From Posidonia oceanica (lineage: Eukaryota; Streptophyta; Magnoliopsida; Alismatales; Posidoniaceae), in the NCBI GenBank assembly GCA_037176725.1, contig JAZBRS010000020.1, positions 95,188,501-95,252,500 on the forward strand: a stretch of 64,000 nt of DNA, given 5' to 3'. The notes beneath the pieces are model-generated. The model saw only the letters and a program-made list of their open reading frames with translations. It made no database searches and was not told where the DNA came from. Made by a program: the position numbers and the translations under genes. This document shows, in pieces, positions 10,403 to 63,700 of the stretch. Each line of letters begins with the position of its first letter. Position 1 is the stretch's first letter.

Positions 10403-12513
10403 GTTGGACGCTGGAATAGGCAGCGTCCAACGTTGGACGCGGCTTGTGCTAGCGTCCAACGTTGGACGTGCTATGGTCTGCCGTCCAACGTTGGACGTGC
10501 TCTAGTCGCGCGTCCAACGACTCAAGGTCGGCAGCGGTTGCTCCGCCCCCTCCAGCTCACCGCCCGTCCAATCCCCCGCCGCCCCACACTTACTACTCAT
10601 CCCTTCCTCCACTCCACGCCATCCACTACCTTCCAAGCATCACGTACTACCCATCTCTCCTCTATTTCAGCCCAAAACCAGCTCTCCTCCTCTCACTGAC
10701 AGGTCTGCCTTCCGTCAGCCGTGTCAGCCACTGCCTCGCCTCCGTCGCCCTCCTACCAATGCCCATGCCCTCCTCTAACATCCCACATGGTCTCCACACA
10801 CTCATCCGCACCTGCCAATGCCTGAATTTGCCAGAATTTGGCTTGCAAATACCTACCAAGCACTGGAACCCATGGAAGCTTCAACAAAACCAGCAAGTTC
10901 AACCCTTTGCCATTCACACCACAGACAGCGAATGAGAGAGCTTCCACTTCCGAGGGCAAGAAGGCACTCCCCTCTCTGTCTGCGACCCATTGCTAGCTCC
11001 TCCGGTGCTCCGAGCAGCTCAGGCGAGCCCGCCGAAGTCGCTGCCGTGCACACACCTGCAACTCCGGCGAACCTCGTCGTCCCACCGTTCCAGGGCTTCC
11101 AAAGGTCAGTATTCCATTCCCAGTAGTCATGCATGTGTAGTAGAACATGTCCATGCATTGTTTGCAAGTTTTTACTTCCTTTTGGATGTGATTCACATCC
11201 AAAAGGAAGTTCACATCCATAGGCCGACGTCCAACGGCCTGCTTTGCTTTGCCTTGGTTTGAATGCTATCCATGCTTTTCCTTTGCTATTTGCCTCTTAA
11301 TTTTCTCGGATCTTATGCCATGTCTTTGACTTGTTCCATGCATGTTTGAATGCTTTTTGCATGCTTAATGATTAGTTTGTCTGCTGCCTTTGTTGGACGT
11401 TAGAATGAACTGCGTCCAACGTTGGATGCTGGTTCATCTAGCGTCCAACGCCTCTGCTTGCTGTGCTTTGCTTCCATGCTTACTCTATGCATATTTTGAG
11501 TATTATTTTATGATCCATGCCTAGTTAGAGATGCCTGGCCCCTAAGGCAACCATGTTTAGGTTTGCTAGGATTTATTCTAAGTTATTTACTCCTTTTTGC
11601 AAAGTTAAAGCTTGCTTCTCTTTATGCATGTTCTTCCCTTTGCTTTCTTTAGCTTAAATGCTTGCCATGCCTCCTTTGCATGCTCCTGTTAGTCTCTTAC
11701 ATGTTCTTAGTGTGTTTGCATGCATCTAGGTGGGGTAGAGCTGAGCTCCCCCTTTAGAACAGGTGAGTTTGCATGCCTGGGTCGTTGGACGCTGCTGGCT
11801 CTAGTGTCCAACGCCCTGGCTCATCTCTTGTTTGTTTAATGCTTGCATACCTCTCTGATTTTGCTTACTTACTTGCTTCCTGTGTTCTTATGCATGTTTA
11901 GCTTCAGTATCATCTGTTCTTTTATTTTAGTTAATTTGTTTGCTTGTTTGTGCATGCTTTTTGTGTGTTGTGCCTCCCAGAGCATTGTACGCTGCTGGTG
12001 CTGGCGTCCAACGTTGGACGCTGTCCTAGCTCGCGTCCAACGCCCTGGTTGTGTCTCTAGCCTTGCACTCAACACAGGTGAGGTTGGATTATTTATTTTA
12101 TGCATCCCCTATTTGCTTGCTTGCCCTTGCTCTGAATCCAGCAACCCAAATGCATGATCCCAACCCTCCTCTATCACTTGTATGCATCTTTTCTCCCCTC
12201 TGCCTTCTGTCCTTGTTGGACGCTAGCCCCTTTGGCGTTCAACGTTGGACGCCCAGCCTACAGGCGTCCAACAACCTGCATGCTTGGATCTTTAATTTTG
12301 GCATGCTCCTTGTTCTGATTCTTCCTCTAAGCTTCTGTTAGGTTAGATTTGCATGTCTAGTACCCATTTAGTTGCATGTTTGCATCAGTACTGCATTCAT
12401 ATGGTTAGATTGCATTGTTTTTTCAAAATATGCATGCTGTCTGTCTGCAGTGGGTGTTGGACGCGGGCTCTCCCAGCGTCCAACGTTGGACGCTGGCGAT
12501 GCCAGCGTCCAAT
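10403..12513 (+). repeat. 29-bp hairpin clusters in the element A LTR
   Basis: Clusters at 10403-10519 (four hairpins), 11392-11449, 11784-11812 (single), 11984-12041, 12215-12272 and 12456-12513. Each hairpin is a 10-nt arm (GTTGGACGCT or close), a 9-nt spacer that differs every time, and a 10-nt arm (AGCGTCCAAC or close). Paired clusters are 58 bp, the single one 29 bp. Where two hairpins abut, the joint is the perfect 18-bp palindrome GCGTCCAACGTTGGACGC. Confidence 0.9.
11174..11210. repeat. 37-nt inverted repeat, 18-bp perfect arms
   Basis: Left arm 11174-11191 (ACTTCCTTTTGGATGTGA) pairs perfectly with 11193-11210 around a single T. It is not present at the corresponding point of the other type I LTRs, so it is private to this copy. 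Confidence 0.9.
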
Positions 12514-13452
12514 GCATGCAGATGGTTGACAGCCACTTTAAAATGCAGATTTCGTTTTGTTCGCCGTTTCTTGCGTTTTATCGCTTCTTTGGCTTGCTGC
12601 AACCCCAATGCCTGTTGCCCACCCCTTTGTTTTGATTTCGCACCCCGCTTTGCCCTGTTTTTTGCGTTTTGCATCGCCTCTTGCTCTTTTGCATGGTTTC
12701 CCGCACCCCTTTGCACCGCTCTTCGCTTTCGGCATCATCTTTCTGCGCCTTGCTTTATTTTTCTGTATTTTTGCATCGTTTTCTGCACCTACTTTGTTTT
12801 ATTGCTTGCATGTCGCCCGCATTGCTTGGTTTTCCCGCCGTTTTGTTTTATCGCTTGCATCCGCATGTAGGGCTGTGATGCTTACTACTTAGGAGTTCTC
12901 ATGAACCAGGGTCCACCCAGTTCGGAACACTAGCAGCGTGGCTGAGCACTTAGATAGCACGTTTATTTCCCTTGCATAATAGGTAAGCATTTAAGACATT
13001 TAGGCATTAGGCTAGCAATTCCCTGCATAAGCGCGAGATTGCCTAAGAAAGACCGACTCTCAGACGTATCGGGGTGCCTAACACCTTCCCCGTGCGTAAC
13101 AGGAGTCCTTGCCCTTTCTCTTGGCTCGCATCGACCTTTCTTTTATCCTAGGCTTGAGTCATAGCATAGCATGATAGCATAGCATAGCTTAGCTTATCCT
13201 TGCACCTCTTTGCCCCTCATTGCATCCGGTTCAGCATGTCTTTTCATGCTTTACCCCCTGGTTTTTCTTGTGTTCCAATTCATAGACTCGGTGGCAACTC
13301 CGAATTGTCTTATTATTTCATTGCTTTTCTTTTGCCAGCGTTTCCAAGTCGAGTTCTTCCCTCGGATCCAGCCGCACATAGTGACCCTATTTTGATCGAT
13401 GCACACAAGCTTTGGTAATGTGCATGGATGATCAGAATTCAGGATTGCTACA

Positions 13453-14843
13453 GATAGCAAGGCAGATCTTAAGCACGGGTTTGAACTGAAGATCAAAGCA
13501 TTATATTAAGCATGGCATCGCATCTAAAGGCATGGAAGCAAGCCTGAAACAGTCACGCACAAGAGGAAACAACCAAACTATAGCAAAGCAGGAGCAAGGC
13601 TAGCAAAAAAGGGCAGGCATGCATGTAGGGTGCTGGACGCCAGCGCATGGGGCGTCCAACGTTGGACGCACCAGGCAGTGCGTCCAACAGGTCGGGAAAG
13701 ATCCCGGCCACGATCAGTGGCCAAGGAGGCTAAAAATCGCCAACCAACTTGCTAGGAAGCAAGAGCGAGTGACGACGAGCATGTTGGTATGCTCAACGCC
13801 AGAAATGGGCGGGTGGATTGCTCCACCCACCTCCTCCTCCTTGCGGCCGGCGGTCGGGGCTTTTTCGGCCAACCAAGGAAGCGTGCGTGCGAGTTAACTA
13901 TCCTAGCATGCTACTAGGTGCGTGTGCTAGCTAAGGGAAGTGAGAACCTACCTGGTTGCGGCCCAGAAGGTGTGTTTGCGCTTGCGGCTGGCGTTGCGGA
14001 AGGTGGCGGCGAGGCTACTCCGGCGAGCTTGCTTGGCATGCTGGGGGCTCGGGAGAAGCTGCTGGATGCTCGGGGGGAGTCGTGGGAGTTTGCTGAAGCT
14101 CTTGGAGTGGTTGAATTGGTGAGAGAATGGCTATGGTGTGCTGTGCCTCGTGGTGAAGATGGTTGTTTGGAGTGGTTTTGTGTTGGGTGCCTGGGTGGAG
14201 GCCGAGGCTACAGAGGCTTTGGTAGGTCTTGGCAGAGGCGTGGCAGGCTTGCTGGGTGAGGGGAGGCCACGAGGCATGGCAGGCGAGGGGTGTGGGCTTG
14301 CCAGAAGGTCGCCGAAGTCGCTGGTGGCAGAGAATCCAGCGGCGGCCACAATGAGGGTGGAGTGAGCGGGAGAGGCGCTGGGGAGGAGATGACGGCTAGT
14401 AAGTGGAGTTACTTCGGCTTGGAAGGTAGTGGATGGCTTGGAGTGGATGAGAGGATGGGCAATAAGTGCGTACGGGTGGTGGAATGGACGGGAGGTGAGC
14501 CGAAGGTGGCGGAGCAGCCGCTGCACCTCCCGGGCCGTTGGACGCTGGTGCAGAGCGCGTCTAACGTTGGATGCTAGCACAGAGCGCGTCCAACGTTGGA
14601 CGCTGCCCGTGCCAGCGTCCAATACGCCCAGGAGGCCAAAGGTTGAGATGGGCTTGGGCCTTGGCTTAAAAAAGGTTTAAAAAAGTGTAAAAGGCTTGGG
14701 TGATGGTTTTGGGGTTTAGGTGGGGTTTTAGGTTTGGTTTTGGGTAGAAATGGGTTAGTCTGAAAAAGAAAGCCATCCCAAAGTCCAAGTAAGACTGCAG
14801 GAGAAACCACCAACTTCCAGGCTGTTAGACTGAGGTGTCTACA
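13453..14843 (-). repeat. LTR fragment E (type I), interrupted by element A
   Basis: Read on the minus strand it starts TGTAGACACCTCAG at 14843, has the GC-rich first part and then the T-rich part of a type I LTR, and stops at the A LTR junction. It matches 31226 down to about 29820 of the D 3' LTR. Hairpin clusters lie at 13632-13688 (57 bp) and 14537-14622 (three hairpins). The remaining about 2 kb should lie to the left of element A. Whether E is a solo LTR or one end of a full element cannot be told. Confidence 0.8.
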
Positions 14844-17539: not shown

Positions 17540-19245
17540 TTTTTGCAAGCCCTTTGCATGACTTTTCAAAGTCATATCTGCTTTCTTCTTTTCGCTTGCT
17601 GTTTTGCGAGCCCTTTGCATGCCCTTTCGAGGTCATGTCTGCTCATCTCCTCGATGGTTCGAGGACGAGCCCTTTGCATGACTTTTCGAACTCATGTTTG
17701 CTTTCTTCCTTTTCACTTGCCGTTTTGCGAGCCCTTTGCATGCCCTTTCGAGGTCATGTCTGCTCGTCTCCTCGATGGTTCGAGGACGAGCCCTTTGCAT
17801 GACTTTTCGAAGTCATGTCTGCTTTCTTCCTTTCGCTTGCCATTTTGCGAGCCCTTTGCATGCCCTTTCAAGGTCATGTCAGATCGTCTCCTCGATAGTT
17901 CGAGGACGAGCCCTTTGCATGCCTTTTCGAAGTCATGTCTGTTTCTTCCTTTTGCTTGCCTTTTTGCAAGCCCTTTGCATGACTTTTCGAAGGCATGTCT
18001 GTTTCTTCTTTTTGCTTTCCTTTTTGCAAGCCCTTTGCATGCCTTTTCGAAATCATGTCTGTTTCTTCTTTTTGCTTGCCTTTTTGCAAGCCCTTTGCAT
18101 GACTTTTCGAAGTCATGTCTGCTTTCTTCCTTTCGCTTGCCGTTTCGTGAGCCCTTTGCATGTCCTTTCGAAGTCATGTCTGCTCATCTCCTCGATGGTT
18201 CAAGGACGAGCCCTTTGTATGCCTTTTCAAAGTCATGCTTGTTTCTTCTTTTTGCTTGCCTTTTTGCAAGTCCTTTGCATGCCTTTTCAAAGTCATGTCT
18301 ATTTCTTCTTTTTGCTTGCCATTTTGGCGAGCCCTTTCCATGCCCTTTCGAGGTCATGTCTGCTCGTCTCCTCAATGGTTCGAGGACGAGCCCTTTGCAT
18401 ACCTTTTCGAAGTCATGTCTATTTCTTCTTTTCGCTTGCCGTTTTGCGAGCCCCTTTGCATGCCCTTTCGAGGTCATGTCTGCTTGCTTCAAGCCCCTTT
18501 GCATGCCCTTTCGAGGTCATGTCTGCTTGCTTCAAGCCCCTTTGCATGCCCTTTCGAGGTCATGTCTACTTGCTTCAAGCCCCATTACATGCCCTTTCGA
18601 GGTCATGTCTGCTTGCTTCAAGACCCTTTGCATGCCCTTTCGAGGTCATGTTTGCTTGCTTCAAGCCCCTTTGCATGCCTTTTCGAAGTCATGTCTGTTT
18701 CTTCTTTTCACTTGCCGTTTTGCGAGCCCTTTGCATGCCCTTTCGAGGTCATGTCTGCTTGTCTCCTCGATGGTTCGCGGATGAGCCCTTTGCATGCCTT
18801 TTCGAAGTCATGTCTATTTCTTCTTTTCACTTGTCGTTTTGCGAGCCCTTTGCATGCCCTTTCGAGGTCATGTCTGCTCGTCTCCTCGATTGTTCGAGGA
18901 CGAGCCCTTTGCATGCCTTTTCGAAGTCATGTCTGTTTCCCCTTTTCGCTTGCCGTTTTGCAAGCCCTTTGCATGCCCTTTCGAGGTCATGTCTGCTCAT
19001 CTCTTCGATGGTTCAAGGACAAGCCCTTTGCATGCCTTTTCGACGTCATGTCTGTTTCCCCTTTTCGCTTGCCGTTTTGCAAGCCCTTTGCATGCACTTT
19101 CGAGGTTATGTCTGCTTATTTGTTTCCTCGATGTTTCGAGGACGAGCCCTTTGCATGCCTTTTCGAAGTCATGTCTGCTTCCCCTTTTTGCTTGCCTTTT
19201 TGCAAGCTCCTTTGCGTGCCTTTCCAAAGTCACATCTGTTTGCTT
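17540..19245 (+). repeat. About 60/120-bp tandem array of hairpins, element B
   Basis: Units alternate between a CATGACTTTTCGAAGTCATG-type hairpin and a CCTCGATGGTTCGAGG-type hairpin, joined by GCCCTTTGCATGCC and a pyrimidine-rich stretch. Between 18480 and 18670 a shorter derivative unit of about 60 bp is amplified. Because the unit has no stop in three forward frames, three overlapping open frames of 427-529 codons exist here; the frames translate the same repeat and are not convincing genes. Confidence 0.85.
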
Positions 19246-24100: not shown

Positions 24101-25844
24101 CATCCCCATGCCTTTGCATTTAGTTCCCTTGCACCCATTTAGGCATTGTTAGCTTCATAACATGTAGCACACCCTGCATTGCACACACATAGGGGTAATT
24201 TGCACTTAGACCCCCACTTAGATCACTTTGTCTGGCCCTTGAGCCATCTAACTTAAAATCTGAATATCTTTTAATCGGATCGTTGGATCTTCACGATCTA
24301 ACTATCCAGGTCTTCCTGGTTGAATGATCTTTCATTCTGTAGCGATCCCAAAATTCGGATCATCCATGCACACTGCCAGAGCTCGCGTGCACCGATCAGA
24401 ACAAGGTTCACTATTAGCAGGTGGTCTGAGGAGGAAGCTCGACTCAAAACATCGAAAACAGGGACGCAAAGCCAAAGGGAAAAAGAAAGAAAGGACAAAA
24501 GGGAGTCGCCACCTAGTCTATTATTGGGAAGACGAGGAAAACAAAGAAAAAGCATAGAAAACAAGCCAATAGATGCAATGTTATGCAGAAAGGATGACTC
24601 GTGCCAAAGACGATGACAAAATGGTCACTACGGGCCAGAGAAAGGGTAAGGACTCCTATTACGTGTGGGGAAGGTGTTAGGCATCCCCGACACGCCCGAG
24701 AAGTCAGTCTTTCTAGGCTAATTCGCTCGCATATGCCGGATATCGGCAATCGCTTGCCTTTGCTATACGCCTGTAGGCGATTGATGCCATGCTATGCTAT
24801 GTATGCTTTAACTGCTTAAAGTGCCTAAATGCCATGTATGGAAATTAAACGTGTTGTCTACGTGCTCAGCAGCACTACCAGTGTTCCGAACTGGGCGAAC
24901 CCTGGTTCGTAAGAACTCCAAGTAGTAAGCATCACTACCCTAATGCAAATGCAGGCGATAAAGCGAAACTACGAGGAAAACCATGCAATGCAAGTGGCAT
25001 GCGAGGGATAAAGCAAAAGTGGGCGTGGAAAACGATGCAAGCGACACGGAAAACGATGCAAGTGAGCGACATGCAAAAGGGAAAGCAAAAGCGGGTACGA
25101 GGCGAAAACCATGGGAAAGCGTGCATTGCAAGGCGCAAAACCAAAACAGGGTCCCGACAGCATGCATGGGTGTCATAGGCATGTACCGGGACCAACGAAA
25201 TGCAAGAAACGGCGATCAAGACGGATTCGGTGCTTAAAACAGAGGTGCAGCTTACTGCAAGTGTTGGACGCAGCTATCAGCAACGTCCAATGTTGGATGT
25301 TGGGATAGCTGGCGTCCTACACAGGTAGAAGCCAAAATGCAGAAAATCATGCATATGAGTTTGGAAATCATGGGTTTGATGCAATGTAAAAACCCAAGGG
25401 TAGATAGAGCATGCTGGGAAACCAAAACACAAGGCCCAAAAACCAAAAGCTAGATCAAGACGATTTTAAAACGGGCAGAGGGTGTTGGACGCTGAGATCT
25501 GTGGCGTTCAACAACCAAGCCATGCTTTTGAAAGAAATGCATGCATGCAGGCTATAAAAATGCGATGTAAATGCTGTGTGAGAGTGCATGACATGTATAA
25601 CATGCAAGGTAGTCAATATAAACATCCAGAAGGAGATTCAATGGCAAGATGCAAGCATGAATGACGTTTAAGCTACTGCAGGGTGTTGGACGCTAGAACA
25701 TACAGCATCCAACATAGGATGCTACAGTATCCAGCGTCCAACACTCTGGAACAGACAGATGGCAAGATAGCATGCAAACTGGTAGAGAAAATATCATGGC
25801 ATGCATTCAAGTTGCTATAAACAAGCATAGGCTGGGCATGCAAG

Positions 25845-28800
25845 TGTTGACACCCCATTTTGACTGCCTGGAAGATGGTGGATCCTCTAGGAAGCTTGCT
25901 TGGACTTTGGGATGGCTCTCTCTTTTTCAAACTGACCCAATTTGACCTAAAACCAAATCTCATTCCAAAACTACCCAAAACCTACCCAAATCCCAAACCA
26001 CAACTCAACCTAAGCCTTAACCAAGCCCAAAACCAAAAAAATCAGCCTTTGGCCTATTGGTTTCGTTGGACGCAGCATTGGCAGCGTCCAACATTGGACG
26101 CAGCATCTGGCGCGTCTAACGTTGGACGGGCTCTGCATCAGTAGACAAAGCGCCAAGACAGCCACAGCTGCTCCGCCACCTCTGGCTCACCTCCCGTCCA
26201 CCCCCACTTACTACCCATCTCCTCCACACTTACTCACCTCACTCCGGCCATCAGCTACCTGTCTAGAGGAAGTAACTTCCTGCCAGCCCGTCCTTTCCAC
26301 CACCGGCATGGCCTCCGCTCTCACCCACCTTCACTACGGCCACCGCTTGACCCTCTGCCCAACCAAGACTTTCTCGCCCTCCTGGCAAGCCCACGCCCAT
26401 CGCCTGCCACTCCTCGTGGCCTCCCCTCACTCTACGACCCCTGCCATCCCTCTGCAAAGCCTGCCATCACCTCTGCCTCGTCCCAGAACCCAACGACAAC
26501 CCAAACAAAACCCATGCAAACAACCATCTTCACACCAAGGCACAGCCCTCCACACTAGTGCTACCAACAATTCGCCACTACCAGAGCCAAGAGCGACATC
26601 CCACAACCACTCCCAAGCTTCCAACACCTGCTTTCAAGCCCCCAGCATGTCTCATCAGCTCGCCGGAGTAGCCTCGCCACCACCTTCCACAACGCCGACG
26701 AGGAGTGCGAATAGCCGCTTCAGGCTGCAACCAGGTAAGCATTCCTTCCCCTTAGCTAGCACACACACCTAGTAGCATGTTAGGATAGCTAGTTAGCACG
26801 CACGCCTCCTTGGCTGGCCGGAATAGCTTCCGCCGCTGGCTGCAAGGAGGAGGAGGTGGGTGGAGCTAACCACTGGCCCATTTCAAGCTTTGAATATATG
26901 TTTATGTTCCTCTTTGCATGCTCATGCTTCCTAGATTCTTAGCTTCGCTTTTTGCATCGATCTGAGCATCGGTTTTGGCCAGGAAGTTCCTGACTTGTTG
27001 GACGCACAGCCTGGTGCGTCCAACGTTGGACGCGCCATAGTGCAGCGTCCAACACCCAGTTGTCACTGTTTTCCTTTGCTCTGTTTCTGCTTTCATGCTT
27101 GCCATGCTTTGTTTACATCTTTATGAGATTGTGGTATATGCTTCCTTACATGTTCCTTGATGCCTTTGCATGCTTAGTATCCTGTTTTGATCCCATTTTG
27201 GATCAATATTGCATGCTTCATGTTAATCTGTTGTCTGCCTGTGTTGGACGTTGGAGTGAGTCACGTCCAACGTTGGACGTTAGTTCATCCAGCGTCCTAC
27301 TTCCTTGTTTGCTTACATCTGTTGCCATGCTTGCATATTGCTTATTTTTTAGTTATATCCTTGATCTATGCATGCTTAGTGATGTCTGGCCTCTATGGCA
27401 CCCATGTTTAAGCTTGCTAATCTCCTCTTTAACGGCATGTTTGTATATGTGGTATTTTTATCCCTTTATTTCATTGCACCTCTTTCTTACTTGCTTCTTG
27501 TGGATTCCATGCTTGGCTTGTGTGGTTTGTCATGATCTGGCATATTCTCAGTTGTTTGCATGCATGATTAAGTGGGGTTTTGAGCTCAGCTCCCCTTTGC
27601 AGGTGGGTTTGCATCCTTCATGTGTTGGACGTTGAAACAATCAGCGTCCTACGTTGGACGCTGATGTTGCAAGCGTCCTACGTTTCTGCTTAGTAACTTC
27701 CATTTAAATGCTTGCATGATGCTTTGATCTCTTATGTTCATTTGATCCATGTCTGCATGCCATGCCTATGTCCGTTTACAGCAACCTGAATGCATTCTAT
27801 GATGTTTCCTTGCTAGTTTGCATGCCATCTTGCCATCTGCCTATTCTAGAGTGTTGGACGCTGGATACTGCAGCGTCCTATGTTGGATGCTGTATGTTCT
27901 AGCATCCAACACCCTGCAGTAGCTTAAAATCATTCATTCTTGCATCTTGCCATCAAATCTTATTCTGGTTATTTATCTTGATTACCTTGCATGTTATACA
28001 TGTCATGCACTCTCATGCAGCATTCACATCACATTCATATAGACTGCATGCATGCATTTTTTCTCAAAAAGCATGGCTTGGTTATTGGACGCCTAGATCT
28101 CAACGTCCAACATTGGACGTTGTCATTCTGAGCGTCCAACACCCCCTGCCCGTTTTAAAATCGCTTTGATCTTGCTTCTGGTTTCTGGGCCTCGTGTTTT
28201 GGTTTCCCAGCATGTTCTATCTGCTCTTGGTTTTTTACATTGCATTAAATCTATATTTCCAAGTTTACATTGCATGTTTTTTTCATTTTGGCTTCTGCCT
28301 GTGTAGGACGCTGGCTTCCCCAGCGTCCAACATTGGATGCTGTTGGTAGCTGCGTCCAACACTTGCAGTAAGTTGCACCTCCGTTTTAAGCACCAAATCC
28401 GTTTTTATCGCCGCCCCTTGCATTTCGTTGGTCCTGGTACATGCCTACAACACCCATGCATGCTGTCGGGACCCTATTTTGGTTTTGCGCCTTGCATTGC
28501 ACGCTTTCCCATGGTTTTCGCCTCGCTCTTGCTTTCGCTTTCCCTTTTGCATATCGCTCGCCTGCATTGTTTTCCGCAACTGCATCGTTTTCCACACCGC
28601 TTTTGCATCGTTTTCCGCACTTGCACCGTTTTCCACACCCACTTTTGCTTTATCCCTCGCATGCCACTTGCATTGCATGGTTTTTCTCGCAGTTTTGCTT
28701 TATCGCCTGCATTTGCATTAAGGTAGTGATGCTTACTGCCTGGAGTTCTTACGAACTAGGGTCCGCCTGGTTTGGAACACTGGCAGTGCTGCTGAGCGCA

Positions 28801-29307
28801 TAGACAGCACGTTTAATTTCCATACATGGCATTTAGGCACTTTAAGCAGTTAAAGCATACATAGCATAGCATGGCATCTATCGCCTACAGGCGTATAGCA
28901 AAGGCAAGCGATTGCCGATATCCGGCATATGTGAGCGAGTTAGCCTAGAAAGACCGACTGCTCGGGTGTGTCGAGGGTGCCTAATACCTTTCCCGCATGT
29001 AACAGGAGTCCTTACCCTTTTTCTAGCCCGTAGTGACCATTTTGCCCTCGTCTTTGGCACGAGTTATCTTCTTTGCATAGCATTGCATCTTTTTGTGTGG
29101 TTTTGCATGTTGTTTCATGCATTTCCCCGGTTTTCCTTATCTCCCGACTTAATAGACATGGTGGCGACTCCCTTTTCTTTCTTTTTCCATTTGGCTTTTT
29201 GCCTCTGTTTTCGGTGTTTTGAGTCGAGTTTCCTCCTCGAACCACCTGCTAATAGTGAACCTGATTCCGATCGGTGCACGCGAGCACGAACACCGAGGAT
29301 CGCTACA
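25845..29307 (+). mobile_element. Solo LTR (type I) inserted in the D 3' LTR
   Basis: Starts TGTTGACACCCC, ends GATCGCTACA, 3,463 bp, with no internal region and matching 5-bp flanks, so it is the product of LTR-LTR recombination. It has the PBS-like TGGCGACTCC at 29162 and a possible splice donor GCAACCAG|GTAAGC at about 26733. Its GC-rich first part contains open frames that are not conserved in other copies. Confidence 0.88.
26065..28360 (+). repeat. 29-bp hairpin clusters in the solo type I LTR
   Basis: Clusters at 26065-26128, 26997-27053, 27243-27300, 27624-27681, 27853-27910, 28083-28140 and 28303-28360. Five of these are exactly 58 bp. Arms drift mostly at CpG (GGACGC to GGATGC, GCGTCC to GCATCC). 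Confidence 0.88.
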
Positions 29308-31226
29308 GCAGGCATGGATCAAACAAACATAAGAGATCAGAGCATCATGCAAAGCATTTAAATGGAAGTTACTCAGCAGAAACGTAGGACGCTGGTAACA
29401 TCAGCGTCCAATGTAGGACGCTGAATGTTCCAGCGTCCAACACATGAAGGATGCAAACCCACCTGCAAGGGGAGCTGAGCTCAAAACCCCACTTAATCAT
29501 GCATGCGAGCAACTGAGAATATGCCAGATCATGACAAACCACACAAGCCAAGCATGTAATCCAAAAGAAGCAAGTAAGAAAGAGGTGCAGAGAAATAAAG
29601 GGATAAAAATCCCACATATATAAACATGCGGTTAAAGAGGAGACTAGCAAGCTTAAACATAGGTGCCATAGAGGCCAGACATCACTAGGCATGCATAGAT
29701 CATAGATATAACTCAAACATAAGCAATATGCAAGCATGGCAGTAGATGTAAGCAAGTAGGGAAGTAAGACGCTGGATGCACCAACGTCTAATGTTGGACG
29801 CGACGCACTCCAGCGTCCAACACAGGCAAGCAACACAATGATCTAAAGCATGAAGTACAGATCCAAGCAAGGATCAAAACAAGATATTAAGCATGCTAAG
29901 GCATCAATGAACATATAAGGAAGCATATACCATAAGCTCATAAAGATGTAAATAAAGCATGGTAAGCATGCAAGCAAAAATAGAGCAAAGGAAAACAGTG
30001 AACAGCTGGGTGTTGGACGCTGCACTATGGCACGTCCAACGTTGGACACACCAGGCTGTGTGTCCAACAAGTCGGGAACTTTCCCGGCCAAAGACAGTGG
30101 CCAAATCGGCCAAAAAACTTAAACTAACTTGCTAGGAAGCAAGAGTGGCCGACGACGAGCATGTCCATATGCTCGGCGCCAGAAATAGGTGGGTGGATTG
30201 CTCCACCCACCTCCTCCTCCTTGCGGCCGGAAAGCCAAGGTGGGGAGGGGTGTGTGCTGTGCTAAAGTGCGGGGAAACAAGCTAGGAACTTTCCCACATG
30301 CATGCACGAGCTATGGGGATCAAAAGCCTACCTTGGTGCAGCCTGAAGCGGCGTGTCCACTCTCGACCGGTCGGCGCGGAAGGTGGCGGCAGGCCAACTC
30401 CGGCGAGCTTCCTTGGCGTGTAGGAGGCACGGGAGAGGGAGCTGGAGGTCTGGGGGTGATCGTGGGTAATCACTCTTGGCTTTGGTGTCGCTCAGTTCTC
30501 TCTCGAATGGGGGTGGTGGTTTGAATTGGGAGGTGAAGTTGCTGTTTTGTTCATGGGTGCATGGGTTCGAGTGTTGGGTTGCAGAGATTTTGCAGGTGAG
30601 GCAGTGGCGTGGCAGGCATTGGCAGAGGTCGCTGGGTGTGGGGAGTCCACAAGGGATGTCAAGTGGAGGCGTGGGGCTTGTCAAAAGGGTGAGAAAGTCC
30701 TGGTGGTGGCAGGAGGAGGTGGCCAAAGTTAGTGACCGCGGAGGTGAGCGGAGGTCACGCCGGGGAGGAGAGGATGGCTTGGCAGGGTAGTTACTCACGC
30801 TTGGAGGCTAATGGGTGGCTGTAGTGGGCTGAGGGGATGGCGAGTAAGTGTGTACGGGCAGCGGAGGGGACAGGAGGTGAGCTAGAGGTGGCAGAGCAGC
30901 CACTGTAACTCCCGGGACGTTGGACTCTAGCACAAAACGCGACCAACGTTGGACGCTGCCCATGCCAGCGTCCAACACGCCTAGGAGGCCAAAGGTTGAA
31001 ATGGGCTTGGGCCTTGGTATATAATGTTTTAAAAGGTTGGTTAAGGCTTAGGTTGAGTTGGGTGATGGTTTTGTGGTTTAGGTGGGGTTTTAGGGTTGGT
31101 TTAGGAATGGGATTTGATTTTTAGATCAAAATGGGTTAATTTGAAAAAAGAGAGCCATCCCAAAGTCCAAGCAAGCTTTCCAGAGTAGTTCGCCATCTTC
31201 TAGGCAGTCAAAATGGGGTGTCAACA

Positions 31227-31905: not shown

Positions 31906-31949
31906 ACGCCAGACAGTGTGATGGGTATCAACCGGAGGAAGCCGAGAAT

Positions 31950-32800: not shown

Positions 32801-32829
32801 CAGACGGATGATAGGTTTCGGACCCACCG

Positions 32830-53115: not shown

Positions 53116-56079
53116 TATAGCGATCCCGAAATTCGGATCGTCCATGCATGCTGCCAGAGCTCGTGTGCACCGATCAGAACTAGGTTCACTATTAGCGGGT
53201 GGTCCGAGGAGGAAGCTCGGCTCAAAACACCGAAAACAGGGATGCAAAGCCAAAGGGAAAAAGAAAGAAAGGAAAAAAGGGAGTCGCCACCAAGTCTATT
53301 ATTGGAAAGACGAGGAAAACCAAGAAAAAACATAGAAAACAAGCAAATAGATGCAATGTTATGCAGAAAGGATGACTCGTGCCAAAGACGAGGGCAAAAT
53401 AGTCACTACGGGCCAGAGAAAGGGTAAGGACTCCTGTTACGTGCGGGGAAGGTGTTAGGCACCCCCAACATGCCCGAGAAGTCAGTCTTTCTAGGCTAAC
53501 TCGCTCGCATATGCCGGATATCGGCAATCGCTTGCCTTTGCTATACGCCTGTAGGCGATAGATGCCATGCTATGCTATGTATGCTTTAACTACTTAAAGT
53601 GCCTAAATGCCATGTATGGAAATTAAACGTGCTGTCTACGCGCTCAGCAGCGCTGCCAGTGTTCCGAACCAGGCGAACTCTGGTTCGTAAGAACTCTAGG
53701 CAGTAAGCATCACTGTCCTAATGCAAATGCAGGCGATAAAGCGAAACTACGAGGAAAACTATGCAATGCAAGCAGCATGCGAGGGATAAAGCAAAAGTGG
53801 ACGCGGAAAACGATGCAAGTGGTGTGGAAAAGGATGCAAGCAAGCGACATGCAAAAGGGAAAGCGAAAGTGAGTACGAGACGAAAACCATGGGAAAGCGT
53901 GCAATGCAAGGCGCAAAACCAAAACAGGGTCCTGACAACATGCATGGGTGTCGTAGGCATGTACCGGGACCAACGAAATGCAAGGGGTGGCGATCAAAAC
54001 AGATTCGGTGCTTAAAACAGAGGTGCAGCTTACTACAAGTGTTGGATGCAGCTATCAGCAGCGTCCAATGTTGGACGCTGGGATAGCTGGCATCCTACAC
54101 AGGCAGAAGCCAAAATGCAGAAAATCATGCATATGAGTTTGGAAATCATGGGTTTGATGCAATGTAAAAACCCATGGGCAGATAGAGCATGCTGGGAAAC
54201 CAAAACACAAGGCCCAGAAACCAGAAGCAAGATCAAGACGATTTTAAAACGGGCAGAGGGTGTTGAACGCTGAGATCTGTGGCGTTCAACAACCAAGCCA
54301 TGCTTTTGAAAGAAATGCATGCATGCAGGCTATATAAATGCGATGTAAATGCTACGTGAGAGTGCATGACATGTATAACATGCAAGGTAGTCAATATAAA
54401 CATCCAGAAGGAGATTCAATGGCAAGATGCAAGCATGAATGAGGTTTAAGCTACTGCAGGGTGTTGGACGCTAGAACATACAGCGTCCAACATAGGACGC
54501 TGCAGTATCCAGCGTCCAACACTCTGGAACAGACAGATGACAAGATAGCATGCAAACTGGTAGAGCAAATATCATGGCATGCATTCAAGTTGCTGTAAAC
54601 AAGCATAGGCTGGGCATGTAGGCATGGATCAAACGAATACAAGAGATCAGAGCATCATGCAAAGCATTTTAATGGAAGTTACTAAGTAGAAACGTAGGAC
54701 GTTGGTAACATCAACGTCCAACGTAGGACGTTGAATGTTCCAGCGTCCAACACATGAAGGATGCAAACCCACCTACAAGGGGGAGCTGAGCTCAAAACCC
54801 CACTTAATCATGCATGCAAACAACTGAGAATATGCAGATCATGACAAACCACACAAGCCAAGCATGTAATCCATAAGAAGCAAGTAAGAAAGAGGTGCAG
54901 AGAAATAAAGGGATAAAAATCCCACATATATAAACATGCAGTTAAAGAGGAGACTAGCAAGCTTAAACATAGGTGCCATAGAGGCCAGACATCACTAGGC
55001 ATGCATAGATCATAGATATAACTCAAAAATAAGCAATATGCAAGCATGGTAGCAGATGTAAGCAAGTAAGGAAGTAGGACGCTAGATGCACCAGCGTCCA
55101 ACGTTGGACGCGACGCACTCCAGCGTCCAACATAGGCAAGTAGCACAATGATCTAAAGCATGAAGTACTAATCCAAGCAAGGATCAAAACAAGATATTAA
55201 GCATGCTAAGGCATCAATGAACTTATAAGGAAGCATATACCATAAGCTCATAAAGATGTAAATAAAGCATGGCAAGCATGAAAGCAAAAACAGAGCAAAG
55301 GAAAACAGTGAACAGCTGGGTGTTGGACGCTACACTATGGCGCGTCCAACGTTGGACGCACTGTTGGACGCACCAGGCTGTGCGTCCAACAAGTCGGGAA
55401 CTTTCCCGGCCAAAGACAGTGGCCAAATCGGCCAAAAAACTTAAACTAACTTGCTAGGAAGCAAGAGTGGCCGACGACGAGCATGTCCATATGCTCGGCA
55501 CTGGAAATAGGTGAGTGGATTGCTCCACCCACCTCCTCCTCCTCGCGGCCAGAAAGCCAAGGCGGGGAGGGGTGTGTGCTATGCTAAGTGCGGGGAAACA
55601 AGCTAGGAACTTTACCACATGCATGCACGAGCTATGGGGATCGAAAGCCTACCTTGGTGTGGCTTGAAGCGGCGTGTCCACTCTCGACCGGTCGGCGCGG
55701 AAGGTGGCAGCAGGCCAACTCCGGCGAGCTTCCTTGGCATGTAGGAGGCACGGGAGAGGGAGCTGGAGGTCTGGGGGTGATCGTGGGTAATCGCTCTTGG
55801 CTCTGGTGTCGTTCAATTCTCTCTCGAATGGGTGTGGTGGTTTGAATTGGGAGGTGAAGTTGCTGTTTTGTTCATGGGTGCATGGGTTTGAGTGTTGGGT
55901 TGCAGAGATTTTGCAGGTGTGGCAGTGGCATGGCAGGCATTGGCAGAGGTCGCTAGGTGTGGAGAGTCCACGAGGGATGTCAGGTGGAGGCATGGGGCTT
56001 GTCAGAAAGGCGAGAAAGTCCTAGTGGTGGCAGGAGGAGGCGACCGAAGTCAGTGACCGCGGAGGTGAGCGGAGGTCAC
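53116..56079 (-). repeat. 5' LTR of element D (type I), start displaced by element F
   Basis: Ends GATCGCTATA at 53116 (final CA changed to TA) and matches 24338-30758 without its solo LTR. The first 468 bp (equivalent of 30759-31226) are absent because the F LTR begins at 56080. PBS-like TGGCGACTCC at 53289-53280, 174 bp from the LTR end. Confidence 0.85.
54041..55390 (-). repeat. 29-bp hairpin clusters in the D 5' LTR
   Basis: Clusters at 54041-54098, 54262-54290 (single), 54463-54520, 54694-54751, 55074-55131 and 55322-55390. Positions match those of the 3' LTR. The single hairpin has GTTGAACGC...GCGTTCAAC, both arms changed relative to consensus. The last cluster has an extra partial arm inserted. 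Confidence 0.88.
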
Positions 56080-57392
56080 TGTGGATATGGGGTTTTTGGT
56101 TAGGAGAAGCTTATTGTGTCTTTTTGTGCTTCCTCGTCACCCCTTTCTATATCCAACTCTGTCCCTCCATAGGTGACGAATCGCCACTCTTGGTTTGCTT
56201 TCGCTGGCCCTCGAGACGCCATGGGGAGATGTGATATGGTTGCGGATTCAGCTACCTTGGGACAACGCCAGCATTGCCCAAGGGTGCCCGTACTTGGTGA
56301 ACTCTTTCATCCTTCTTCCTCCTTGTATGACAAACGTTAGCAAAACAAAAGAAACAAAACAATGCAAAGATGGATCAATATGTGTAGTAACTTATCTAGA
56401 ATGAGTAGGAAAGAAAATAACAAAGCATAATGAAATACGTACCCGAGGGGTTTGATCCCCCTAGTTGCAACTAATTAGAGATGTATGCTTAGCTACAACA
56501 ATATATGAACTAAAAATAAAATGCTTGATTATGCTATGGAATTGAACATGTGATATTAGAAATGAAAAGAAAATAATAAAAATAGAGTCCCCTTTATCTA
56601 TGCACAAAGTGCAAATTGTGTTGACATGAAGCCAACAACGACAAAGGGACACTCAAGCTTTTCGAAGACTCTCCGCCTTTCCAAATCTCTCTTCTCTCTT
56701 TCAATTCTCAAGGACCTCACTTCTCTAGGATTTTTAATCTCAAGAGAGCATGTGAATTCCAAAAATCTGGCCCTGAACCCTGTGGGGGTACCCCTGCTTT
56801 TATAGAAGTAGAAGAGGAACAAAAAAGGACACAAATGCCAAGTCAGTAGAATTGCCTGTTTCAGAAGTGTTATACGCTGGAAAACTAGCGTATAATGTTA
56901 TAAGCAAGAGTTCCCACGTATAACAACCTCCGAGACATAACTGCCAGGATCAGAGAAGATTCCCCAATTAAGGAGTCATTAAGTGTGTTTAAACTCGGCT
57001 TTGATGGCTTTGACCGGTTAATAGGTTCCAAAGAAGGCAAAAAATGATTTTTGGATTAGGCCAAATAAGGAAAGCTTTGGGCTGACTGGGTTGCCACGTT
57101 GGATGCTGGAAAACCAGTGGCCAATGTTAGCCACTAGAGAACCAGCGGCCAACATTGTACGCTGAGAAGCCAGCGGACAACACTCTCAATCAGTTCAACT
57201 TTCAAATTTGGTCAGGACATGAAGAACACAAGGTTGCCGACACTTAGGGCTTAGATAAGGATAACATTATGGACTTGAGAGAAAACATTTGGCTCAAGTG
57301 AGACATTCTGGATTGGGTAGAGGGCTTCTAAGAGTGACCGAATGCTAGAGACTACACTAACATGAAGGGTGTGCCAAAACGGGGTATCTACA
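56080..57392 (-). repeat. 3' LTR of element F
   Basis: Minus-strand start TGTAGATACCCCG at 57392, end ATATCCACA at 56080, 1,313 bp. It interrupts the D 5' LTR at GGAGGTCAC. Hairpin relatives: 56870-56935 (GTTATACGCT...GCGTATAAT, both arms changed) and 57098-57185 (three 28-bp hairpins). A different LTR family from types I and II in length, but with the same TGTAGA start and the same hairpin idea. Confidence 0.75.
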
Positions 57393-58734: not shown

Positions 58735-59010
58735 GACTTGAGTTGGATCAAATATCCAACACTCAAGGATTGAGCTAGATTATCCAACACTCAAGGGATT
58801 GAGCTGGATTATCCAACACTCAAGGATTGAGCTGGATCAAACATCCATCACTCAAAGATTGAGCTGGATTTATCCAACACTCAAGGATTGAGCTGGATCA
58901 AACATCCAACACTCAAGGATTGAGTTGGATTTATCCAACACTCAAGGATTGAACTGGATTATCCAACACTCAAGGATTGAGCTGGATCATCCAACACTCA
59001 AAGATCTACC
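58735..59010 (-). repeat. ATCCAACACTCAAGGATTGAGCTGGAT hairpin array, element F
   Basis: About nine units of about 27-37 bp. CTCAA-gga-TTGAG is extended by ATCCA and TGGAT, so nearly the whole unit folds back. Confidence 0.85.
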
Positions 59011-59165: not shown

Positions 59166-59239
59166 CTTCTTTGGCTTTGCTTTGTTGACCCGGTGGTGCT
59201 CTGGGGTTCTCAAAAATCATGACGGCCTCATCTCCATGT

Positions 59240-59490
59240 GCATCCTAGCTTCTAGAAGCCTCTAGAATTGGAAGAAAATTGATGTAGAGGCTTTCTGGCA
59301 AAATTCAGCATTTTAAATTGCTCTGAAGTATTGGACGCTATATGCTTCTGCGTCCAACATATGACGTTAGAATGTATTGCGTCCAACATCTAAACTGTCA
59401 TCTGGGTGTACGACGCTATTCATTACTGCGTCCAACGTATGACGCAAACATCTCTAGCGTCCAACATGTCGGGGCCTTTAACAGTCGTGT
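59240..59490 (+). repeat. Direct repeat with hairpins, upstream of the PMD gene
   Basis: Text with TAGAAGCCTCTAGAATTGG and TTCAGCA, then hairpins at 59339-59396 and 59408-59465 (each 29 + 29 bp, as GTACGACGCT/GTATGACGCA variants). The same order (TAGAAGCCTCTGGAACTAG, TTCAGCA, hairpins) is found after the gene at 63370-63700, in the same direction. Confidence 0.75.
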
Positions 59491-59499
59491 TCGCCTTTC

Positions 59500-62400
59500 T
59501 TCCGCACTTTCTAGCTCACCACTCTCCTTTCTCTTCTTCTCCGGCGATGGTGGCAATTCCTTTTGAGTTTCCGAGCTTCTTCTAGCGTGACGCGGCTCAC
59601 CCGTTCGACGGCTCTGATAGCCGGAGCTAGGGCACGGTGGCAGCGGCAGTGCACATTCCGGCGAGCAAAAACTGCGGCTTCCAGTTCCGGTGAGCATGCT
59701 TTCTTTTCTTCCCTTCCTCCTCCTCATCATTCCAGATAATGCTTTGACCTCTATTGGGTCCTTTTCAGTTTATGCCGAGATTTGGTAAAGCTTACATGAG
59801 GCCAAAGAAGTTGGCATGGAGGGGGGAGGGCCCGTCGACGTCCGGCGAGTCTGAGCCGACTCCGGTGAGGATGCCGGAGGCAATCGAGATGGCGGAGGAG
59901 GCACCGGCAGTTGGGATGATGGAGGCGGCTGCAGTTGGGATGCCGGCAGTCGAGATGACAGAGGAGGTGGTGGCACCGGCAGACATGCCCGAGGCGGTGG
60001 CACCGGCGGATGTGCCCGAGGCAGTGGCACCGACGGACGTGCCTGAGGTGGCAGCCTGTGCCGTGGAGACTGAGGTGACGAGCGTCAAGGAGACTGAGGT
60101 GACGAGCATCGAGGAGACTGAGGCGATGAGCGCCTCTGGTGGCTCGGAGGATTTCTATTCTTCAGCCACTCTCGGCGAGGATTCAGAGGAGTCGGGGTCG
60201 GAGGAGGTAGTTCCCGAGGCGGTCCACGCTGCTGTTGCCGGGATGGTTGAGGATGACGGTTAGTACGTGAGCATCCGGGACTTTGTTCGACGGGAGGCAG
60301 AGGGCGATGCTGGTGCTCCTCCAAATTTTACGCGGGCTCACATACCCCACGAAGAGGTGCAGGCTTCGGCACCGCGCAGGGATGCAGCCCGGGCCGAGCT
60401 TGCGGTAGCTGCATTGGCGGCTAGGGGACAAGTAACCACATTTCCATTCAATTTCAAATGTTATTTTTGTGAACTTTGTCTGACAATTCTTCTCTCTCTT
60501 GTAGAGTCGGGCCCCCACCGTCGTGCATTGTCACTGGAGTCAGGTCCTCAGGTGCTATCGGATGTTGGAGCCTTTCCAGCACGAGCGGCTTCGGCAGATG
60601 GGGTTTGGACACTTCTTGTCCATTCCTTTCTTCCAGCTTGAGTTGGGACTTCTGGAGTCTGCAGCAGAGCGCTACCACCCTCATACGAGCTCGTTCGTGA
60701 CCCGGGTTGGTGAGTTCATCCTTTCTCTTGAGGACATGGCCCAGGTGACGGGATGTCCGGTGACTGGCCCAGTACACTCCGACTACTCCTCTACGATGGC
60801 GGAGTTGGTGGGGAGGAGGGTCGTCATGTACAGGCCCCGCCTTTTTGTTACTACCTCGGCGGTTCAGCGCGTCGAGGACTCCCGAGAGACAGCGACGAAG
60901 CCTGGGGAGGACGCCGATCAGCAGCTCTGCGCCTTCCTTTTAGTTCTATTTGGGGACCTGCTATTCAGCCATGCTACTTCACGGGTTTTGGCAGTGTTCC
61001 TCCCCTGCTTGCCGACTTAGATCGAGTAGGGGAGTACGCTTGGGGAGCCTCTAGCCTGTCGTTCTTGTACACCATGCTCTTCAAGTTCTCTAATGGTAGT
61101 TCCCGCCAGCTTGGCGGGAACCTGCCATTCTTCCAAGTATATAAACTTTCTTTGCTCATTTAAGCTTCAAATATTATTTACTTTGCATGCTCAACTGATG
61201 ATTTGCTTTCTTTTTACTTGCAGATGTGGGTATGGGACCACTTTGCTCTCATGAGGCCCATCCCACCTTCAGTTCCCGAAGCAGGGATGCCCTTCCCGCG
61301 TGAACTGCATTGGAGTCAAGCTGCTCATGCACCTGAGGCGGTCACTGGCCACTGCTATGTCGGGCGTCTCTTCTTTGAGATGCTGGTTCCTGCCCAAGTA
61401 ATATGCCCCTGCTGATATATTATTCTTCTTTTGGCTTACTGATTCATTGTATGCTTTCTAGCTGATCTGGCATCCTTACGCCGAGGGGGAGCACGAGGAT
61501 GTCCTCGAGATAGCTCGGGACCGGACAGTTTTCGACCGGGTCATCTGGCTCCATTGCTGAAACCACTGCCATTTCCAGCAGATCAGCCGGGCACTTAGGC
61601 AGTTGGGGCGCCGGCAGATTCAGCCTCAGGCTCACCCGTTCTGAGTTTGGTGCGAGATACGAGGGGGAGGTGGACGTGCTCGCCACTGGATTGACACCTA
61701 CGGTCCACAATTGCTGGACTGGGTTCGAGGCAATTCCACCACTCCTGCTGACGCGACCACTGAGGACGAGCTGGCTTGGGCCAGGTGGATGGATGACCGG
61801 TTTAGCGAGCTCATGGTCTTCCATCGCTCTCATTTTCTGGGGCGGTCGAACCTTCCCATGGGTGACACTGCTCCAGATGTGGTAACGATGGCTGTGGGTG
61901 AGTTACAGGAGTCCGTCCGCTCTCACAGGATTTAGATGGAGATAGTGGTGAGTATTTAGCTTTATGTTTCAATTTGTATTGCCTGTATTCCTTGACAGCT
62001 AACTTGCTTGGACCTTGCCCCTCGCAGCTGAGGACTATTGACGAATATAGTCAGCGCGAGCGCGACATGGTTAGGCACGTTGCCGAGTTGACCGAGGAGG
62101 TTGAGCGTCTGCGAGCCTCTGCTTCTCAGGTTTGCATTTATTTTTATAGCATAGTTGTTTGCCTTGAAAATTGTGCTAATTATGCCTTCTTTGCTTTTGC
62201 AGCCTTTGACCAGTTCTACCCCTCCACCGGGTCATGCCAAGGAGATTTCCCACCTTCAGAGTATGGTAAGTATAGCAGTATACTTTCCCTTCATATTTCT
62301 TGATTCAGTTCTGACTATGGTTCCGACTTTTGCAGATTGACGATCTTCAGCGAGAGTTGGAGCGGACTACAGCAGGTGCCTTGGAGCGTGCTTTACGCCT

Positions 62401-62928
62401 TGAGGAGTAGCTGGAGAAGGTACGTCGACTTGCTGAGGAGAGGGCTGCTAAGATTGCCTGGCTTGCTGCGCAGCAGCGACCCCTACCAGCGACTGATTCG
62501 GCTGTAGAGATTGCCGAGCTGAGGAGGCAGCTGGAGGTGGCTCAGAAGGTATAACTTGCTCTTCTTCCTTTTAAATTCATATGCTTGCTTATGCTAATGG
62601 CTTGATGCTTCTCCTTTGTCTTTTCTTGCAGGAACGAGATATGGATCGTGTGATGGCAGCTCAGTTCGAGACCGAGGCGATGCATTACCGACGGGAGGCC
62701 GTGCTTGGTAGTGTTTCCACTAGTCGCCGAGTTCCTCCTCCTCCGTTGTCTGCGTCGAGGCATCGCTCTGGCAACCGTCGTCCACCGGTTGGGGGGTCTC
62801 AAGTTGCGTCACAGGCTTCCTCAGGTGCCTCAGTGCGTCAGTTGGCACAACCCCTTGCAGCTCCTCCTTTGGCTCCTTCTTCAATTCCTCCTTCAGCTCC
62901 CAAGGGCGAGGGGGAGAGTGCCACTTAG
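59500..62928 (+). pseudogene. Plant mobile domain (PMD, aminotransferase-like) gene, spliced, with stops
   Basis: Predicted exons with GT-AG borders: 5' UTR exon to 59690 (donor GGTGAG), then 59769-60431 (ATG 59772), 60505-61136, 61224-61397, 61462-61947, 62028-62129, 62203-62265, 62336-62548 and 62632-62928. Exon two carries the PMD signature: YRMLEPFQHERLRQMGF, FVTRVGEFILSLEDMAQVTG, followed by CAFLLVLFGDLLF and AWGASSLSFLYTMLF. The N-terminal exon encodes an acidic Glu/Val-rich, degenerate VAPAD/PEAVAP repeat. The last exons encode heptad-like coiled coil (RERDMVRHVAELTEEVERL) and a Pro/Ser-rich end. Broken by TAG at 60261, a frameshift near 61007 (within CTCCCC), TGA near 61558 and 61642, TAG near 61933 and TAG near 62408. 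It runs opposite to the F LTR. PMD proteins are known in plant transposons and in the MAIL1-type host proteins; the role here is unknown. Confidence 0.75.
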
Positions 62929-63369
62929 TTGTTGCCGCTCTCTTTTTCTTTCTTTTTTCTTTTTTTTTACTTGATAGCACTCGTACCTCAGGGGTATGCC
63001 CCAGTGATATTGTAGAAAACTCAAATTTATAAATGATAAAGATTTTCTGCACACTTAACAAACTTGTCAAATGTTTTCTTTTTTTCTTTACCTTTCTCTA
63101 AGTTGAAAATGAACTAAGATAACCAATAATCGGGGGAGCACTTCCAAATAATGGCTTTTTATTCAATTTAACTTGAAACAAGCTTAATTATGTGTAATAA
63201 TATGCAAATGACAGAGTTATGAAGAAAAATTTCACCTGCGAGCTTTAATTCTGAATTCCGCGATCGTTGGCGCTTTAATAAGTTAATAACTTAATGTAAA
63301 CTACAACAGGTGATTTTAGATAGCCCGGAGGTCCAAAAAATATGAAACCAACGACCACACGTGTATTCC
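62929..63369 (+). other. 3' flank of the PMD gene
   Basis: AT-rich with T runs at 62945-62970 and a possible 3' end AATGATAAAG at about 63033. Nothing else recognised. Confidence 0.4.
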
Positions 63370-63700
63370 AACTTGTAGAAGCCTCTGGAACTAGTAGAAA
63401 TTGGTTTGGCAATTTGTCCACGGATTTGGAGGGCCATGAGCGAAGTTCAGCAACTTAAGTTGCTGAAAAATGTTGGACGCAATTGTCTACACGTCTAACA
63501 TAGAACGCTAGAATAGATAGCGTCCAACAACTCTTTTTTTTTTTGCATTGAACGCTAGAAAAGGTTGCGTCAAACGTATGACGCAAGAAATTATTGCATC
63601 CAATAAACTTGTATTTATTTTTTTCTTTTTTTTTGCTACGTTGGACGCTAGAGTAAGTTGTTTTCAATGTATGACGCAAGGCTTGGCAACGTCCAACATA
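63370..63700 (+). repeat. Direct repeat with hairpins, downstream of the PMD gene
   Basis: Hairpin clusters about 63473-63529, 63549-63606 and 63642-63699, each close to 29 + 29 bp with GTATGACGCA arms as at 59427. With 59240-59490 it may be the promoter region of a second, tandem PMD copy lying to the right. Confidence 0.75.

Follow-up and report, generated by a model that had tools for sequence, protein, structure and literature searches.

Paired half-site arrays in long terminal repeats and around a plant mobile domain gene of a putative Ogre-like retrotransposon from Posidonia oceanica: candidate cis-regulatory elements

Introduction

What is the nature of the short palindromic units, 29 bp long and often doubled to 58 bp, that are scattered through the long terminal repeats (LTRs) of a retrotransposon and on both sides of a plant mobile domain (PMD) gene in Posidonia oceanica? 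The question arises from a single 64,000-nt window (contig JAZBRS010000020.1), and all positions follow the numbering of this whole stretch. An earlier note on this DNA had described the units as two 10-nt arms around a 9-nt spacer. We propose, with about even confidence, that the clusters are cis-regulatory protein-binding arrays belonging to the control regions of a Ty3/gypsy retrotransposon of Ogre-like type, binding being predicted from the sequence.

Results

Scanning the window for the two 10-nt arms at up to two mismatches gave 84 and 80 matches, chance matches included. The half-sites GTTGGACGC/GCGTCCAAC face in alternating directions, and the distances between them are sharply defined. 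At up to two mismatches 246 half-sites were present, compared with 158 (standard deviation 10) in 2-base-block shuffles; the exceptional feature is their spacing. Convergent pairs accumulated at spacings of 20 (53 pairs) and 19 (9 pairs), divergent pairs at 9 (30 pairs) and tandem pairs at 29 (54 pairs) and 28 (8 pairs). Another 26 convergent pairs at a spacing of 49 represent the outer pair of a doublet, and each of the remaining distances was occupied by at most 6 pairs. When spacers of 0–30 nt were allowed, the main lengths were 9 (57 rows) and 8 (12 rows); two more peaks at 16 (32 rows) and 2 (17 rows) are, in our reading, off-register read-outs of the palindromic junction. The 29/58-bp geometry reported before is thus real, and approx. 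35 clusters, counted from the spacer scan and the half-site spacings, stand against the at least 30 claimed. A separate scan restricted to spacers of 8–10 nt found 59 units in five LTR copies, 50 with a spacer of 9 and 9 with a spacer of 8. The core of the half-site dyad is TGG-CCA, and both half-sites show a preference for G/A and G/C beside the arm: 32 of 50 units have G at spacer position 1, and 46 of 50 have C or T at position 9.

LTR copies were delimited by LTR start and end patterns together with self-BLAST (Table 1). In a multiple alignment, the units of one LTR type, type I, lie at seven homologous positions (alignment columns 333, 1302, 1564, 1961, 2201, 2435 and 2677). These ancestral positions account for 28 of the approx. 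35 clusters across five copies (W, V, X, Y and Z), which are therefore not independent events: the clusters are mostly inherited, not separately inserted. Clusters 3–7 are common to W, X, Y and Z, cluster 1 to W, V, Y and Z, and cluster 2 to V, X, Y and Z. Between copies the clusters vary by whole 29-bp units while the flanks are continuous. For cluster 1, W has four units, V three, Y two, and Z two with a degenerate third. At cluster 4, W has one unit where X, Y and Z have a doublet; at cluster 6, W and Z have a doublet where X and Y have one unit. Single units at 11784, 25484 and 54262 were recovered as previously described. W is devoid of cluster 2, which we read as a loss because one half-site remains there (11226). 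Both inverted and direct duplicates are present among the doublets.

Solo LTR Z lies in opposite orientation within LTR Y of the same type, flanked by the near-matching 5-bp target repeats GCAAG/GCAGG. LTR X (53116–57392) has a polypurine-tract-like start, a primer-binding-site-like end and halves of two LTR types: 56079–53116 matches type I, and 57392–56080, here called G, has no type I alignment except for its first approx. 211 nt. X could be a single LTR of 4.3 kb or two LTRs fused together, possibly a recombinant LTR.

Conservation was assessed on 13 homologous units aligned by hand, with the extra units of cluster 1 excluded; W and Z share 10 of them. Between W and Z, arm positions 1–9 were identical at 159 of 180 sites (88%), a value inflated by consensus-based unit finding, although sites with only 57% identity would seldom have been picked up. 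The spacers agreed at 33 of 72 positions (46%; two units of unequal length excluded) and the LTR outside the clusters at 1525 of 2683 (57%). The arms differed from this background (p = 5e-19), whereas the spacers did not differ significantly (p = 0.07). In contrast, the arms of the close copies X and Y (179/198) were less conserved than their surroundings (2029/2144; p = 0.023; the first 1100 columns left out for X). Deviations in the arms were mostly transitions (Z 15/20, Y 16/23, X 9/14, W 8/10), a bias that would fit post-insertion decay of methylated cytosines. The CpG observed/expected ratio in the W clusters was 1.12, compared with 0.51 elsewhere in the LTR.

Arm changes between W and Z were two-sided in 5 cases (4.3 expected) and one-sided in 21. 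As paired changes do not exceed expectation, it is the arm sequence that is conserved and not pairing alone. Over the comparisons of W with X, Y and Z, 4–5 two-sided changes were found where 2.6–4.3 were expected, and one-sided changes outnumbered them. This surplus of one-sided changes and the descent of the type I clusters from one ancestral LTR are among the outcomes named earlier as counting against the claim. Paired change had been put forward earlier as a sign that a structure is selected or copied. It holds at 56869–56924, where all four half-sites have a common TTATA-like change and the new arms still pair; between deep lineages there is no excess. Constraint on the arms is supported, with a DNA-binding or structural role as candidates; arm covariation is not supported as general evidence for structure. 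The unit at 56869, formerly taken as a single, is one half of this 56-bp doublet.

The first cluster lies at a similar place in both LTR types. Cluster 1 of type I starts at LTR position 221 (W, V, Z) or 251 (Y), and the first G cluster at position 212 (LTR start 57392, minus strand). The latter LTR had been called unrelated, which does not hold for its start: positions 13–211 are 58–63% identical to type I, 2.8–4.0 standard deviations above letter shuffles. The clusters extend down the LTR to position 2331 of 3270 in W and 2516 of 3463 in Z. In G, the 56-bp doublet lies approx. 65 bp upstream of a TATA-like box (56804–56797). The LTRs of W, Y and Z are C-rich from approx. 300 to 900 and T-rich after approx. 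1050–1200. A donor-like site is found near this change in W (921) and Z (889); in Y none matched near the composition change, although other donor-like sites exist.

As noted before, clusters also occur on both sides of the plus-strand PMD gene. The arrays at 59330–59465 and 63472–63697 have the same orientation, and the first lies approx. 330 bp upstream of a candidate PMD ATG (59796, read by eye). A segment containing two doublets and their flank (63334–63603) is 62% identical to 59211–59464 (170/273 columns). The gene probably extends to both sides of the coding piece at 60505–61020.

The PMD gene (59700–63000, plus strand) is antisense to the adjoining minus-strand LTR and, judged by eye, seems to contain introns. 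Tandem hairpins of approx. 29 bp (ATCCAACACTCAAGGATTGAGCTGGAT-like) occupy 58738–59005, approx. 325 bp from the 59.3 kb clusters, with a folding z of -6.5. This array contains GTTGGAT, one base off the half-site start GTTGGAC.

A Pfam scan of ORFs gave the domain order RVT_1, RVT_3, rve, with RVT_3 between reverse transcriptase (RT) and integrase; Ogre (Tat) elements are marked by an additional RNase H that sits between RNase H and integrase. This order is of the gypsy type and distinguishes gypsy from copia elements. The PMD open reading frame at 60505–61020 scored above the Pfam cut-off, while 34363–35226 and 6854–7456 matched below it; no env-like Pfam match was found among 30 ORFs scanned. 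The best reading of the host is an Ogre-like Ty3/gypsy retrotransposon. With RT followed by RVT_3 and integrase, and with a PMD open reading frame (ORF), it resembles the Ogre/Tat lineage, where a PMD is reported for 57% of Ogre elements (PMC6317226). The string 'palindrom' occurs nowhere in the main text of that paper.

Table 1. LTR copies, half-site clusters and PMD coding piece in the window
Feature	Positions	Strand	Basis
Type I LTR copy W, polypurine-tract-like GGGAGGGGCATC just before	10183..13452	+	start/end patterns, self-BLAST
W cluster 1, four 29-bp units	10403..10518	+	arm scan, multiple alignment
W cluster 3, doublet	11392..11449	+	arm scan, multiple alignment
W cluster 4, single unit (X, Y, Z: doublet)	11784..11812	+	multiple alignment
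W cluster 5, doublet	11984..12041	+	arm scan, multiple alignment
W cluster 6, doublet (X, Y: single)	12215..12272	+	multiple alignment
W cluster 7, doublet	12456..12513	+	arm scan, multiple alignment
Type I LTR copy V, partial	13453..14843	-	self-BLAST, start/end patterns, alignment
V cluster 2, doublet (57 bp)	13632..13688	-	arm scan, multiple alignment
V cluster 1, three units	14537..14623	-	arm scan, multiple alignment
Type I LTR copy Y, 3' part	24338..25844	-	self-BLAST, start/end patterns
Y cluster 7	25263..25320	-	arm scan, multiple alignment
Y cluster 6, single unit	25484..25512	-	arm scan, multiple alignment
Y cluster 5	25685..25742	-	arm scan, multiple alignment
Type I LTR copy Z, solo, inside copy Y	25845..29307	+	self-BLAST, start/end patterns
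Z cluster 1, two units + degenerate third	26065..26149	+	arm scans
Z cluster 2	26997..27053	+	arm scan, multiple alignment
Z cluster 3	27243..27300	+	arm scan, multiple alignment
Z cluster 4	27624..27681	+	arm scan, multiple alignment
Z cluster 5	27853..27910	+	arm scan, multiple alignment
Z cluster 6, doublet	28084..28140	+	arm scan, multiple alignment
Z cluster 7	28303..28360	+	arm scan, multiple alignment
Type I LTR copy Y, 5' part	29308..31226	-	self-BLAST, start/end patterns
Y cluster 4	29384..29441	-	arm scan, multiple alignment
Y cluster 3	29764..29821	-	arm scan, multiple alignment
Y cluster 2	30012..30068	-	arm scan, multiple alignment
Y cluster 1	30919..30976	-	arm scan, multiple alignment
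LTR X	53116..57392	-	self-BLAST, start/end patterns
X cluster 7	54041..54098	-	arm scan, multiple alignment
X cluster 6, single unit	54262..54290	-	arm scan, multiple alignment
X cluster 5	54463..54520	-	arm scan, multiple alignment
X cluster 4	54694..54751	-	arm scan, multiple alignment
X cluster 3	55074..55131	-	arm scan, multiple alignment
X cluster 2, two units parted by 12-bp insert	55322..55390	-	arm scan
G LTR 56-bp doublet, changed arms (GTTATACGC)	56869..56924	-	half-site spacing scan
G LTR three 28-bp units, LTR positions 212-295	57098..57181	-	direct duplicates by spacer
Two doublets near PMD gene	59330..59465	-	arm + half-site scans
PMD coding piece	60505..61020	+	E 2.1e-10, Pfam
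Three doublets beyond other PMD gene end	63472..63697	-	half-site scans

Discussion

In the mechanism that we prefer, the units would be dyad-symmetric, sequence-specific DNA sites made of half-site GTTGGACGC in facing pairs, with a spacer of 8–9 bp between the 10-nt arms. A dimeric or oligomeric nuclear protein, either the host's or the element's own, would bind the half-site pairs of the LTR and those beside the PMD gene, and binding would raise transcription or confer resistance to silencing. Changes in array length would come from duplication of the 29-bp unit, either direct or inverted, the inverted kind giving rise to the 58-bp palindromes. An oligomeric DNA-binding protein would fit the dyad, the centre distance of 20 bp, the combination of fixed arms with a variable spacer, the CpG richness and the location.

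Several points weigh against such a protein-binding function. All data come from one window, and the units were identified by their resemblance to a consensus. The type I copies yielded no convincing TATA box; because of this and the inconsistent donor-like sites, the proposal that clusters 2–7 lie in a leader intron is tentative. The half-site of the G LTR differs (GTTATACGC, GTTGGCCGC). Furthermore, the two spacers of a type I doublet tend to be reverse complements of each other (p = 0.0002), which a pure half-site model does not require, and many doublets therefore form one imperfect 58-bp palindrome. The spacer, described before as free, is so in that it diverges between copies and differs between clusters, but not in this respect. 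Between the close copies X and Z, 6 two-sided arm changes were found compared with 2.1 expected, and 5 one-sided ones, a reversal of the relation seen between W and the other copies. When families were pooled, arm pairing exceeded that of shuffles for 20 doublets (short pairing, p = 0.02; long pairing, 0 of 2000) and for all 32 doublets (0.001 and 0.0005, respectively). We ascribe this excess to family-level half-site shifts and shared descent; it could be structure.

Within individual type I units, spacer positions 3 and 7 pair in 23 of 50, above shuffles (p = 0.0026), and positions 4 and 6 in 4 of 50, more rarely than in shuffles (10.8); related copies are pooled in both counts.

That the clusters have no selected function is possible though unlikely. 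Quasi-palindromes would here be made and kept alike by mutation, namely by a reverse transcriptase or polymerase that switches template, by inverted duplication and by arm conversion, together with shared descent. The variation by whole units, the coexistence of inverted and direct duplicates and an excess of two-sided transitions between X and Z agree with this. Other hairpin-rich arrays in the untranslated regions of these elements point in the same direction (folding z of -3.3 or below in 7 of 11 arrays, against -1.6 to +1.2 in five controls). Similarity within doublets is not above that between copies, so a fading relic is possible. However, conversion of units should carry the spacers along, yet these differ between clusters. 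The arms remained 88% identical at several separate sites where the LTR fell to 57%, and the position of cluster 1 is common to a second LTR type.

A functional RNA hairpin, for which a doublet would fold into a stem of approx. 27 bp that acts when the element RNA is packaged, dimerised, spliced or translated, appears unlikely. Of the 25 type I doublets folded, among which X cluster 2 with its insert and the overlapping cluster 1 pairs were not included, 18 favoured one long hairpin by our count. Spacer pairing beat between-cluster spacer shuffles in each group separately (minimum free energy, p = 0.04 for W, 0.0025–0.005 for Z and 0–0.0025 for X/Y). The pooled arm pairing and the G doublet, which pairs despite its new arms, also speak for a hairpin, and clusters 2–7 may be transcribed. 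In contrast, the PMD-flanking doublets and the G doublet as a set have no spacer complementarity (p = 0.29), and the conservation of the arm sequence itself, with two-sided changes near expectation in the W comparisons, is not what pairing alone would leave. The G clusters and the array at 59.3–59.5 kb lie upstream of likely start sites, single units persist, and seven scattered sites per LTR would be odd for a packaging signal.

We consider it very unlikely that the palindromes are mainly a source of hairpin small RNAs, serving host recognition and silencing or self-limitation of the element. Palindrome-rich Sirevirus LTR regions are described as attracting small RNAs in maize (PMC10760457) and a 58-nt hairpin would be of fitting size; such a role explains a cost to the element, but not the conservation of arm sequence. 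The very small foldback element suggested earlier, inserting independently as 29- or 58-bp pieces, accounts for discrete length and scattered positions but is extremely improbable in view of the homologous positions in type I copies, the unit-wise changes within clusters, the half-site left in the W cluster 2 gap and the lack of any target-site duplication recognised by eye at cluster edges in the five copies.

The arrays have described counterparts, contrary to the earlier statement that no such family was known. Sireviruses (Ty1/copia) carry RM boxes, described as a palindromic, repeated dyad motif that begins 200–400 bp from the LTR start, recurs ahead of the env-like gene and forms clusters bordering CpG islands (PMC2829016). 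In maize, Sirevirus palindromes are described as defining a cis-regulatory region, and the same palindrome, CACCGGACNNNGTCCGGTG, as the commonest motif of structured Helitron regions (PMC10760457). The Posidonia arrays resemble RM boxes in their multi-copy dyad motif (59 units in five LTR copies, against at least eight copies per element for RM boxes) and in the first cluster at LTR positions 212–251. Copies upstream of an extra gene may be a further parallel, the gene being PMD here and env-like in Sireviruses. The Usier RM consensus GTCGGACGTCCGAC (PMC2829016) contains the half-site GTCGGAC, one base from GTTGGAC here; because 13 consensi were compared and a chance match is possible on a rough estimate, this likeness is a lead only. 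Unlike RM boxes, the arrays reside in a Ty3/gypsy host, have the core TGG-CCA instead of CGG-CCG, have 29-bp units whose half-sites are separated by 8–9 bp and which often form part of a larger 58-bp palindrome, and span most of the LTR instead of mostly its upper half. Of the 13 RM patterns in the table of PMC2829016, seven were tested and none occurred in the window at 1–2 mismatches. As core, host lineage and LTR distribution differ, the arrays would be RM-like in their working, not an RM array.

A second parallel is offered by the VANC targets of VANDAL transposons, described as a short motif in non-coding parts (upstream, intron) in one orientation, multiplied by tandem repeats, gained and lost between related copies and specific to subfamilies (PMC5735166, PMC10398659). 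VANC targets are bound by an anti-silencing protein that the transposon itself encodes. Whole units were likewise gained or lost here among related copies (clusters 1, 4 and 6), but half-sites alternate instead of keeping a single orientation, and the element carries a PMD. The host PMD proteins MAIN/MAIL1 have been linked to the 'DOWN' motif, which is CATGCAGTTT in the promoter of MORC1 (PMC7156037, PMC9899485). This motif is similar as a promoter motif associated with PMD proteins; its sequence is unrelated to the half-site and not palindromic.

Since the same places (early LTR, around an extra gene) and a similar half-site recur, a common reader is a testable idea. In its widest form, which we regard as distinctly unlikely, unrelated mobile elements (copia Sireviruses, Helitrons and Ogre-like gypsy elements) would have converged on palindromes with a YGGAC core, placed early in the LTR and at the extra gene in the LTR elements and read by one nuclear DNA-binding system. 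The PMD would then encode or recruit the factor in a self-recognising anti-silencing system of VANC type, with the 58-bp nested palindrome as binding unit. On the protein-binding interpretation itself, control regions with palindrome arrays would occur in a Ty3/gypsy lineage as well as in the Ty1/copia Sireviruses, and the 29-bp unit, the arm conservation and the PMD-flanking arrays provide a substrate for asking what the Ogre PMD ORF does.

Other repeats in the window

Tandem arrays lie between PMD and LTR of three elements (8276–9743, 17548–19241 and 31946–33263). Each consists of a different hairpin-forming repeat, e.g. GATAAGTTTCGGACTTATC, and all six pieces tested fold with z of -3.3 to -8.6. 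A 426-bp unit present twice at 49355–50214 with 99% identity represents a recent tandem duplication. Downstream of another LTR start (19990), two 15-bp arms around the loop GGGC form a perfect hairpin at 22736–22769, in a stretch where the arm scan gave no 29-bp units.

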